Below the pieces are notes generated by a model. It did no database searches, was not told the origin of the DNA, and saw only the letters and a program-made list of their open reading frames with translations. Below, in pieces: positions 4,862-20,840 of a DNA stretch of 64,000 nt. Source of the stretch: Limihaloglobus sulfuriphilus (lineage in GTDB: Bacteria > Planctomycetota > Phycisphaerae > Sedimentisphaerales > Sedimentisphaeraceae); contig NZ_CP019646.1 in NCBI RefSeq assembly GCF_001999965.1, forward strand, positions 2,604,001 to 2,668,000. The letters run 5' to 3'. Positions within the stretch are counted from its first letter, which is position 1; the number at the start of each line of letters is the position of its first letter. Made by a program: the position numbers and the translations under genes.

Positions 4862-6013
4862 ATGAAAAAAGAACAAAACCAACGCAGATTAATGGACTAT
4901 TTTTCGACAATTGAAGACCCCAGAGTCGAGCGTACTCGCAAGCATGAGCTTAGCGATATTTTATCCATTGCAATTTGTGCAATAATTTGTGGCGCTGATG
5001 GATGGACACAGGTTGAAGAGTTCGCTCAGTGCAAAGAAGAGTGGTTTAAAAGTTTTCTTTCTTTGCCTAATGGCATTCCTTCTCACGACACATTTGGACG
5101 AGTATTTTCTTCTCTCAAACCCGACTCATTTGAACAATGCTTCCTCGAATGGGTCAATGCCTTAGCCCAAAAGAGTGAAGGCAGGCTCATAGCCATTGAC
5201 GGCAAGACTATGCGTAGAAGCGTTGATTATGCATCTGAAAAAGCGGCTGTTCACATGGTAAATGCCTGGTGCGACACCAACAAAATGGTCATTGGGCAGA
5301 TTGCAACAGAAACCAAGAGCAATGAGATAACGGCTATACCTAAGCTCTTGGAGTTAATTGATTTAGATGGTGCAGTTGTAACAACTGATGCTATGGGCTG
5401 CCAAAAGGAAATTGCTAATGCTGTAATTGAAAATGATGGGGACTATATCTTGCAGCTAAAGGCAAATCAGACCGGCCTGCATAAAAATGCAGTTACCCTT
5501 TTTGATGAATGTATAGACGATAATGTCTATAATATTCAATATACTGTTGCAAGTGAAACTGATGGAGGCCACGGCAGGGTTGAAGAACGCACATTGCGGG
5601 CTGTTTCAAATGTAGGATTCCTTAACTCTGAAAAGAAGAACTGGGTCGGGCTCAAGAGCCTGATATGTGTGGAGGCAAAGAGGAGCATAGGAGATGAAAC
5701 AAGCGTAGAGAAACGGTATTACATATCAAGCCTGACTTGCAAAAATCCGCCAAATTTACTCAAATATATCAGGGGCCACTGGGGGGTAGAGAACTCCTTG
5801 CACTGGTGTTTAGATATCAGCTTTGCCGACGATGAAAGGAGAATAAGAAAAGGTTATGGAACAGAAAATTTTGCAAGGCTCTCACGAATAGCACTGAATC
5901 TGCTAAAACAGCAAACCAAGCACAAGGTCGGCATAAAGACCAGAAGGCTGTGCTGCGGCTGGAACGAGCAATACCTATATCGCGTGCTGACACAACAAAA
6001 TAAAGGACTTTAG
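4862..6013 (+). CDS. ISAs1-family DDE transposase
   Basis: This is a 383-residue transposase of the ISAs1 family. The N-terminal part has the family's characteristic DYFSTIEDPRVERTRKHEL. The RNase-H-like DDE core follows: first Asp in LIAIDGKTMRRS, second Asp in VVTTDAMGCQKEI, and the Glu region in HWGVENSLHWCLDISFADDE. Length is normal and no stop or frameshift interrupts it, so it is probably active. It has a good GAGG ribosome site before the ATG. Its stop codon TAG overlaps the right terminal repeat. Confidence 0.95.
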   Translation: MKKEQNQRRLMDYFSTIEDPRVERTRKHELSDILSIAICAIICGADGWTQVEEFAQCKEEWFKSFLSLPNGIPSHDTFGRVFSSLKPDSFEQCFLEWVNALAQKSEGRLIAIDGKTMRRSVDYASEKAAVHMVNAWCDTNKMVIGQIATETKSNEITAIPKLLELIDLDGAVVTTDAMGCQKEIANAVIENDGDYILQLKANQTGLHKNAVTLFDECIDDNVYNIQYTVASETDGGHGRVEERTLRAVSNVGFLNSEKKNWVGLKSLICVEAKRSIGDETSVEKRYYISSLTCKNPPNLLKYIRGHWGVENSLHWCLDISFADDERRIRKGYGTENFARLSRIALNLLKQQTKHKVGIKTRRLCCGWNEQYLYRVLTQQNKGL

Positions 6014-6578: not shown

Positions 6579-7678
6579 TGCCCGGCAGGATAAACACAGA
6601 GCGGCTTCGCGAGCTTTTCAGGGACATGGTAAACATCTACAGCCCCACCGGCAAAGAGGGCCAGATTACCGAATATCTGGCACGCTATCTCTATGAAAAC
6701 GATCTTCCCGTCACCATGCGGGAGGTTACCGAGGGGCGGCGCAATATCGAGGTTGTTTTCGGACCCGGCTCTCCTGAGCTGGCGTTTATAGGCCATATTG
6801 ATACTGTGCCGGCATTTGATATAGAAAACTACGAGTACCAGGAAGAAAACGGCGAGGTCTTCGGCCTTGGAACCGCCGACATGAAAGGCGGATGCGCGGC
6901 GATGATAGAGGCGTTTGTATCGCATATCGAAAACGGCGGCAAGATCGAAAACACAGCCCTCTTTCTCGTCGTCGGCGAAGAAGACAACGGCGACGGCACA
7001 GCCGCAATGCTCGAGGCTATGAGTTTTCCCTGGGCGATAGTCGCCGAGCCGACAAACCTGGTTCCATGCTTCGACCATTTCGGCTATATCGAAATGCTTG
7101 TGCAGGCCTACGGCAGACGCCGGCACGCCTCCATGGCAGGACGCGACCAGAACGCGGTTTTCAGCCTTTTGCGGACGCTTCTGCGGCTGGCTGAGACAAT
7201 CGAGACCGAATTCCCCGAGACGGTAATGAACATACGCTCCGTTCACAGCTCCGAATCCGGCTTCGCGGTGCCCGGCAGCAGTGAGGCATGGCTGGATATG
7301 CACATAAAACCCGAACAGGACAGCCGCGAATTTGTAAGTACCCTGAAAAAACTTGCCGACGAGTGCCTCTGCGGCGGTGCGGTTACCAGCCATGAGATCA
7401 CGTTTCCAACCATTGCCGGCGGCTACAGCCTCGAGCAGTCGGGCAGATTGTGGGAAATACTCAAAAAAGCATACTCAAACCAGGGAATTGGCTGGAAACC
7501 CGGAACCTTCAAGAGCCATTCTGACGCGAATCTACTGCGGGATGCAGGCTGCAAACCGGTAATTCTCGGCCCCGGCAGACTGGCAAGGGCTCATACCAGG
7601 GACGAGGCCGTCTCGTTCGACGAGGTAGCCGCCTCCGCCGGGCTCTACCGCCAGATGCTCTCTATTATGCAGCCTTAA
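6578..7678 (+). CDS. M20-family metallopeptidase/deacylase (ArgE/DapE/LysK type)
   Basis: This zinc hydrolase of about 366 residues has all M20 landmarks: FIGHIDTVP with the metal-binding His and catalytic-side Asp near 73-75, GLGTADMKGG with the bridging Asp, VVGEEDNGDG with the catalytic Glu pair, VAEPTN, and the last metal His in FKSHSDANLLRDAG. The family removes acyl or peptide groups from amino acids (ArgE, DapE, LysK, carboxypeptidases). Pairing with an acetyltransferase suggests an N-acyl amino-acid cycle, but the substrate cannot be assigned. The ATG at 6578 overlaps the stop of the acetyltransferase; a GTG three bases earlier is an alternative. The 3' end overlaps the convergent gene by 4 bases. 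Confidence 0.9.
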   Translation: MPGRINTERLRELFRDMVNIYSPTGKEGQITEYLARYLYENDLPVTMREVTEGRRNIEVVFGPGSPELAFIGHIDTVPAFDIENYEYQEENGEVFGLGTADMKGGCAAMIEAFVSHIENGGKIENTALFLVVGEEDNGDGTAAMLEAMSFPWAIVAEPTNLVPCFDHFGYIEMLVQAYGRRRHASMAGRDQNAVFSLLRTLLRLAETIETEFPETVMNIRSVHSSESGFAVPGSSEAWLDMHIKPEQDSREFVSTLKKLADECLCGGAVTSHEITFPTIAGGYSLEQSGRLWEILKKAYSNQGIGWKPGTFKSHSDANLLRDAGCKPVILGPGRLARAHTRDEAVSFDEVAASAGLYRQMLSIMQP

Positions 7679-8214
7679 TCAAACAGGGGTGTGTCAAAAC
7701 TGCCGGCGTTTTCAAGGGTTTCGCGGCGTTTTTCCACAAAATCAACTGACACATCACAGCGAGAAGCAATTTTCTTCGCTGTGTCATCACTCTTGAGCAG
7801 CAACTCATCAACCCGTGGCTGTACGAGGAATTCCTTTTCGCGGCGGATTTTGTCCTGTTTTCTCACCTCGCGGCGCCAGTATTCCAGCTCTTTCTGGTAG
7901 AGTTTCTTGTCGCGGCGGATTTCATGGCCGTTTTTCTCTTTGCGAAACACTTTGATCTTTTTCGGCGTGGTAACGCTTAGCCTTATGCGGTTGTCATCAT
8001 CAGGCCCAAGATAAGAAACACGTATTTTGCCCAGTTTATTGCCGATAAGCACCGATTCGTCACGGTTAATGCTGAGGCTGGTTTCTTTTGTCTTTTCACC
8101 GGTGAGCGGCGCAACGTCCTGGCGGACATTATCCTTACGGAAAAACCGCTCATAAACGAGGTCAAAGCCGATAACCAGGACCCACATCCCGGCAAGTATT
8201 ATCAAAACCTGCAT
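7675..8214 (-). CDS. Membrane-anchored CsrA-like protein with helical tail
   Basis: The 179-residue product starts with one transmembrane helix (residues 2-20, VLIILAGMWVLVIGFDLV). Residues 46-95 read like CsrA: NRDESVLIGN matches R-x-x-G-E-x-x-x-I-G-D, then IRVSYLG, RIRLSVTTPKKIKVFRKE matches V-R-L-G-I-x-A-P-x-x-x-x-V-x-R-x-E, including the RNA-contacting Arg near 91. A long, highly charged helix follows (98-135), then TAKKIASRCDVSVDFVEKRR, which has the look of a small helix-turn-helix. CsrA itself is a free 60-residue RNA-binding dimer, so membrane attachment and the tail are unusual. RNA binding at the membrane is an inference; a CsrA-like fold without RNA binding is possible. Confidence 0.6.
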   Translation of the reverse strand: MQVLIILAGMWVLVIGFDLVYERFFRKDNVRQDVAPLTGEKTKETSLSINRDESVLIGNKLGKIRVSYLGPDDDNRIRLSVTTPKKIKVFRKEKNGHEIRRDKKLYQKELEYWRREVRKQDKIRREKEFLVQPRVDELLLKSDDTAKKIASRCDVSVDFVEKRRETLENAGSFDTPLFD

Positions 8215-8319: not shown

Positions 8320-8931
8320 TTATTTACCTGTTGAGGGTGCCTTTGTGAGCACCTTATCAGCGAGACCGTAATTGATTGATTCCTGAGCCTCGAGCCAGAG
8401 ATTTCTGTCGCAGTCTTTCTCTATTTTTTCCGGTTTTACGCCGGAATGCTCCGAGAGTATTTCATAAATTAGCTTCCTCAAACGAATTATCTCTTTTGCC
8501 TCTATCTCGAGATCGCTTGCCGTGCCCTGCATAACTCCGCTTATCAGCGGCTGATGCAGCATTATCCGGCTGTTTGGCAGCATGTAGCGTTTGCCTTTTG
8601 TGCCGCCGGCGAAGAGAACCGCTCCCATGCTTGCCGCCTGGCCGATGCAGTATGTGGCTACCGGGCAGCGGAGAAAACGCATCGTGTCATAAATCGCCAA
8701 TCCGGCAGTAACCGAGCCGCCGGGAGAGTTTATATAAAAGTGAATATCGCTGCTGCTTTCCTCGTTGCTCAAAAACAGCATCTGGGCGATAATCAGATTC
8801 GCCGAGTTGTCATCCACAGGCCCGCCAAGGAATATGACCCTGTCTTTGAGAAGGCGCGAGTATATGTCAAAGGCCCGCTCTCCCCGGCCGGTCTTTTCAA
8901 TTACCATTGGAACAAGTTGGTTCGATATCAT
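8320..8931 (-). CDS. clpP: ATP-dependent Clp protease proteolytic subunit
   Basis: This is a 203-residue serine protease of the ClpP family. The catalytic Ser lies in [16 protein letters not shown], the His in [10 protein letters not shown] and the Asp in the CDRN segment. The oxyanion glycines are in [18 protein letters not shown]. Together with ClpX or ClpA it forms the barrel that degrades unfolded or tagged cytoplasmic proteins. Length is normal. No clpX lies beside it. The spacer behind the gene has a short GCCCC/GGGGC hairpin at about 8300-8315 but without a clear T-run. Confidence 0.95.
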
Positions 8932-20746: not shown

Positions 20747-20840
20747 CTACGGTTTGGGCAAAGCAAAGTCTGGTCCCGCAGCACCAACGGTGCGAAATAT
20801 CATAGCATAGGGCACCGCCCTATGTGTATATGCGTTAATG

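Follow-up and report, generated by a model that had tools for sequence, protein, structure and literature searches.

A genuine CsrA-type domain, which would be cytoplasmic, is joined to a membrane anchor in a protein encoded within the window (the whole 64,000-nucleotide stretch of DNA analysed here). We refer to this protein as TM-CsrA, and we give about even chances to the interpretation that it is a membrane-tethered dimer scaffold, derived from CsrA, that presents a helical arm and a docking tail.

Organization of TM-CsrA and its relationship to CsrA

The features discussed below are as follows.

7675–8214, minus strand: TM-CsrA coding sequence, a membrane-anchored CsrA-domain protein of 179 aa (open reading frame at these coordinates; orthologues 43–44% identical)
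8149–8211, minus strand: transmembrane helix, residues 2–22 (hydropathy; AlphaFold2 helix at 2–28)
7930–8079, minus strand: CsrA-type domain, residues 46–95 (Pfam PF02599; hhalign; strand order b1–b5)
7942–7944, minus strand: codon for R91, which corresponds to CsrA R44 and is replaced by Ser in G003 (alignment)
7792–7929, minus strand: long charged helix, residues 96–141, with the invariant pattern LYQKEL..WR.E.R..D..RR..E (alignment and AlphaFold2)
7705–7779, minus strand: C-terminal helix pair, residues 146–170, loosely winged-HTH-like (AlphaFold2 and structure comparison)
7678–7704, minus strand: conserved C-terminal tail, residues 171–179, GSF(D/E)TPLFD (alignment)
8320–8931, minus strand: clpP-like protease gene, 105 bp upstream of the TM-CsrA gene (identity by inspection)

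Ordinary CsrA is a small, soluble, stand-alone protein of about 60–75 aa, in contrast to the 179 aa and membrane helix of TM-CsrA. The transmembrane helix that the preliminary description placed ahead of the domain is well supported: residues 3–21 have a mean Kyte-Doolittle hydropathy of 2.4 (2.9–3.0 in the orthologues), the segment is hydrophobic in all three proteins, and it has no positive charge before it and Arg/Lys residues (R23/R26/K27) just after. A hydropathy scan of the rest of the protein gave no second stretch above 0.8, indicating a single membrane helix, and the positive-inside rule predicts an N-out/C-in topology with the remainder of the protein in the cytoplasm.

Residues 46–95 constitute a genuine CsrA-type domain, as first described. 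PF02599 matches residues 47–93 with 25.4 bits (E 1.4e-5) in the full protein, just below its cut-off of 27 bits, and with 28.4 bits (E 1.6e-6), over the cut-off, when the domain is isolated; a search of the genome with this model gives 26.9 bits, or 27.5 bits with the neighbouring residues in frame included, and the CsrA models of NCBIfam and PHROGs match weakly. Profile-profile comparison (hhalign) of the three orthologues with 15 CsrA sequences aligns residues 46–95 with a probability of 95% (E 2.6e-8), and the real alignment scores 49.8, while none of 200 column-shuffled controls goes above 24.1. TM-CsrA is 44% identical to a planctomycete CsrA over positions 4–55, and shares the signature LSxx(R/K)DES with the ordinary CsrA proteins of the Sedimentisphaerales. 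One motif requires correction, in that the sequence given as R-x-x-E-x-x-x-I-G-N is actually R-x-E-x-x-x-I-G-N (R51-D-E53), and R51 corresponds to CsrA position 8, not to an Arg critical for RNA binding.

AlphaFold2 predicts a helix at residues 2–28, strands at 43–50, 53–57, 65–71, 76–83 and 89–93, a helix at 96–141 and then two short helices, with a mean pLDDT of 80 (about 90 at residues 1–20). The soluble part was also modelled from an alignment of the window protein and its orthologues without canonical CsrA, and this second model likewise has b1–b5 followed by a 46-residue helix. The CsrA order b1-b2-b3-b4-b5-helix is thus predicted in both models; together with the significant profile match this supports the proposed fold, and both models include the long charged helix anticipated after the domain.

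The CsrA-type match found by Foldseek is to RsmN/RsmF (probability 0.91–0.98, with weak E-values), and no other CsrA structure was recovered in structure comparisons of the monomer models. We do not read this dearth as a difference in fold, since only monomer models were compared, and monomer modelling may also account for the RsmN/RsmF match.

Distribution and conservation

The arrangement of membrane helix, CsrA domain, long helix and tail is present in the genome containing the window and in two genomes of its sister genus, G003, where the gene is complete, and G001, where it is split across two contig ends. A full-length profile found these three orthologues together with ordinary CsrA among 397 genomes of the class, and the window's own gene but no further relative among 392 genomes of the phylum, such that about 790 genomes yield only two with this order beyond the window's own. 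Scans of GTDB contigs and of IMG/VR gave no relative (other than G001 and G003 in the former), the C-terminal half alone gave no clear relative in the five genomes of the family outside these three, and no membrane helix was seen by eye in twelve long-frame or weak-scoring CsrA regions of the order, some of which have no readable CsrA frame. A search of the open-access literature found no described membrane-anchored CsrA and no described protein with this order of parts, in agreement with the preliminary description.

A comparison of G001 with G003 gives a dN of 0.17, a saturated dS and an overall dN/dS of about 0.07, indicating that the gene is under purifying selection. Identity between the genera is about 50% in the CsrA domain and long helix, 12–18% in the linker, and 89% in the tail GSF(D/E)TPLFD, the best-conserved part of the protein; the difference between tail and linker suggests that the tail is a docking motif.

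The RNA-contact surface

In the account of Mercante et al. given in PMC6692469, the strongest RNA-binding positions of E. coli CsrA are R44, V42, L2, I47, V40, L4, R6 and R7; the same paper calls the salt bridge between R6 and E46 indispensable. We compared these by CsrA position in the three sequences, in the order window's genome (G000), G003 and G001. Core features are present (L4, E10, hydrophobic strand positions, P37, V40, V42 and E46), with positions 4, 40, 42 and 46 retained or conservatively substituted. Four others are replaced in all three proteins, position 2 being T/T/K, position 6 Ile throughout, position 36 T/S/S and position 47 K/R/R. Position 7 is Asn, where most local CsrA proteins have Gln, and position 44 is R/S/R, the window residue being R91. 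L2, R6, A36 and R44 are all present in 14 of 14 ordinary CsrA proteins sampled from the order.

With Ile at position 6 the R6-E46 salt bridge is gone, even though E46 itself is kept. Because all three proteins have lost L2, R6, A36 and I47, and one has also lost R44, canonical CsrA activity of TM-CsrA is doubtful, and RNA binding through the known contacts, as originally supposed, is not supported by these sequences; for the window protein itself canonical binding is possible, if doubtful. The RNA-contacting Arg proposed earlier is present in the window protein and in G001, but it is Ser in G003, a loss in orthologues that had been named beforehand as grounds for refuting the proposal.

Gene neighbourhood and the history of ordinary csrA

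The TM-CsrA gene lies 105 bp after the clpP-like gene on the same strand, with no minus-strand terminator in the gap and a promoter-like site (9004–8976, minus strand) near the clpP-like gene, and it is possible that the two are co-transcribed. An M20-peptidase-like gene is also a neighbour in the window. In G003 (L056:207-3602) the TM-CsrA gene heads a closely packed cluster on one strand, followed by genes for malic enzyme and an mnmE-like protein with gaps of about 35 bp. The neighbours are therefore not conserved, and do not help in assigning function. Elsewhere in the window, an Rfam Acido-Lenti-1 RNA matches at 20780–20824 on the minus strand (38 bits, gathering score 37), and there is an open reading frame at 4862–6013 on the plus strand whose product resembles an ISAs1-type transposase.

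Of the order's 118 genomes, 104, that of the window among them, have PF02599 matches, most of which are ordinary CsrA proteins with scores close to 90 bits. By this search ordinary csrA is missing from the window's genome (one contig, 99.97% complete), and the tethered domain is the sole CsrA-type domain there. The sister genus has ordinary csrA alongside TM-CsrA, and both there and in genus g3 ordinary csrA is near rny, encoding RNase Y (loci L053, L054); rny is present in the window's genome, and the gap upstream of it contains neither csrA nor a visible remnant. It appears that TM-CsrA arose beside ordinary CsrA before the two genera split, and that ordinary CsrA was later lost in the window's lineage, a history deduced from which of the family's five sampled genomes carry each gene. 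Since the sister genus also has ordinary CsrA, the tethered form was not born as a replacement for it. FHIPEP, of the flagellar/type III export family, is absent from the window's genome, although a joint loss of csrA and flagella does not serve as an explanation, as genus g3 also lacks FHIPEP yet has csrA. FliW was considered as a partner and rejected, being absent from all five genomes of the family.

Comparison with known systems

TM-CsrA resembles ordinary CsrA/RsmA/RsmE (PF02599), especially that of the Sedimentisphaerales, in its significant profile match, b1–b5 and C-terminal helix, LSxx(R/K)DES hairpin, P37, V40/V42, E46 and often R44, but it adds an N-terminal membrane helix, a 46-residue helix and a C-terminal tail, has about four extra loop residues, and differs at the four replaced contact positions. 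RsmN/RsmF of Pseudomonas (PDB 4KRW, 4K59) is similarly an enlarged relative of CsrA with changed topology; its helix is inserted between b2 and b3, with none at the C-terminus and no membrane helix, whereas neither AlphaFold2 model of TM-CsrA has a helix between b2 and b3.

Other planctomycetes also have CsrA within a larger protein, as a fusion to a receiver domain (L076, L077, L078, L079 and L080, with L075 similar). These proteins, of roughly 250 aa, begin with CsrA and continue with a His-kinase-like helix and then a REC domain; they have no membrane helix, and their CsrA score (about 52–58 bits) is much above that of TM-CsrA; the two tested against Pfam score 52–54 bits for CsrA and 61–70 bits for Response_reg. 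They are possibly phosphorylation-controlled CsrA proteins, and their existence indicates that multidomain CsrA arose more than once in the phylum. One further genome, with 17 CsrA matches in all, has a 99-aa frame that contains two tandem, partial matches to CsrA (L085, G465:C1:89070-89324). FlgV, formerly Hfq in Borrelia, is a small membrane protein once tied to RNA binding and has a conserved C-terminal peptide (PMC11607428). It differs in having two membrane helices, a disordered tail and a gene within a flagellar superoperon, and in lacking a CsrA domain, and we rejected it as the identity of TM-CsrA, which has one membrane helix and whose host genome is without FHIPEP.

Possible functions of TM-CsrA

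We favour, in order, a dimer scaffold, RNA control at the membrane as its main rival, and a tethered DNA-binding protein. For the scaffold, we envisage that a duplicated CsrA domain gained a membrane anchor at its N-terminus and a helical arm at its C-terminus to become a single-pass inner-membrane protein. The CsrA fold would be kept mainly as a platform for dimerization in the cytoplasm beside the membrane, a protein partner may dock onto the paired long helices and GSF(D/E)TPLFD tail, and canonical control through ANGGA RNA would be lost or strongly altered. This is consistent with retention of the core CsrA features while the contact residues changed, with the conservation of the tail and the low dN/dS, and with a predicted CsrA order that does not depend on canonical CsrA in the alignment. 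Against it, R44, L4, V40, V42 and E46 are kept or conservatively replaced in the window protein and G001, leaving part of the RNA-contact face, the region of the long helix has a net positive charge (+2 to +5) that would suit RNA too, and there are three sequences in all, with no conserved gene partner.

It is possible, though we hold this only tentatively, that TM-CsrA is a true post-transcriptional regulator at the membrane that binds RNA, perhaps with altered specificity, holds mRNAs there, and replaces the lost soluble CsrA. Its position as the sole CsrA-type domain of a complete single-contig genome, when nearly all relatives have ordinary CsrA, and the retention of R91 in two of the three proteins are in keeping with this, as is RsmN, which illustrates that the family tolerates rearrangement and whose R62A mutant keeps some functions (PMC3791407). 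The four contact residues gone from all three proteins, the Ser in G003 and the ordinary CsrA of the sister genus argue against it. The fuller version, in which everything that CsrA does now takes place at the membrane, with a lone tethered CsrA of re-specified RNA binding controlling translation or decay of mRNA at the inner membrane, we consider unlikely.

Less likely again is a membrane-tethered DNA-binding protein, in which the C-terminal helices would form an Lrp/AsnC-type winged helix-turn-helix and the CsrA domain would merely dimerize. Residues 129–175 resemble Lrp-like and TrpR structures (VIA-align, Z about 6), and R.SI...CGVS..FV.KR...LE..GSF looks by eye like an AsnC-type motif, but Z values under 8 are in the range of common arrangements, and the isolated C-terminus of every orthologue searched has no Pfam or NCBIfam helix-turn-helix match. 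The possible helix-turn-helix noted earlier thus stands as a weak structural resemblance and not as a profile match. That TM-CsrA is a chance similarity or a decaying, functionless gene is scarcely credible, for the full-protein Pfam score slightly under the cut-off is outweighed by the shuffled controls, the orthologues in another genus with their low dN/dS, and the identity and signature shared with planctomycete CsrA, which for practical purposes refute it.

Known CsrA proteins are small, soluble dimers that bind RNA, and here a membrane-anchored version with several RNA-contact residues changed has been maintained by selection. TM-CsrA is a reuse of the CsrA fold in a species that lacks ordinary CsrA, and it raises the question of whether the fold serves as a dimer scaffold at the membrane, or whether RNA control has been relocated there.
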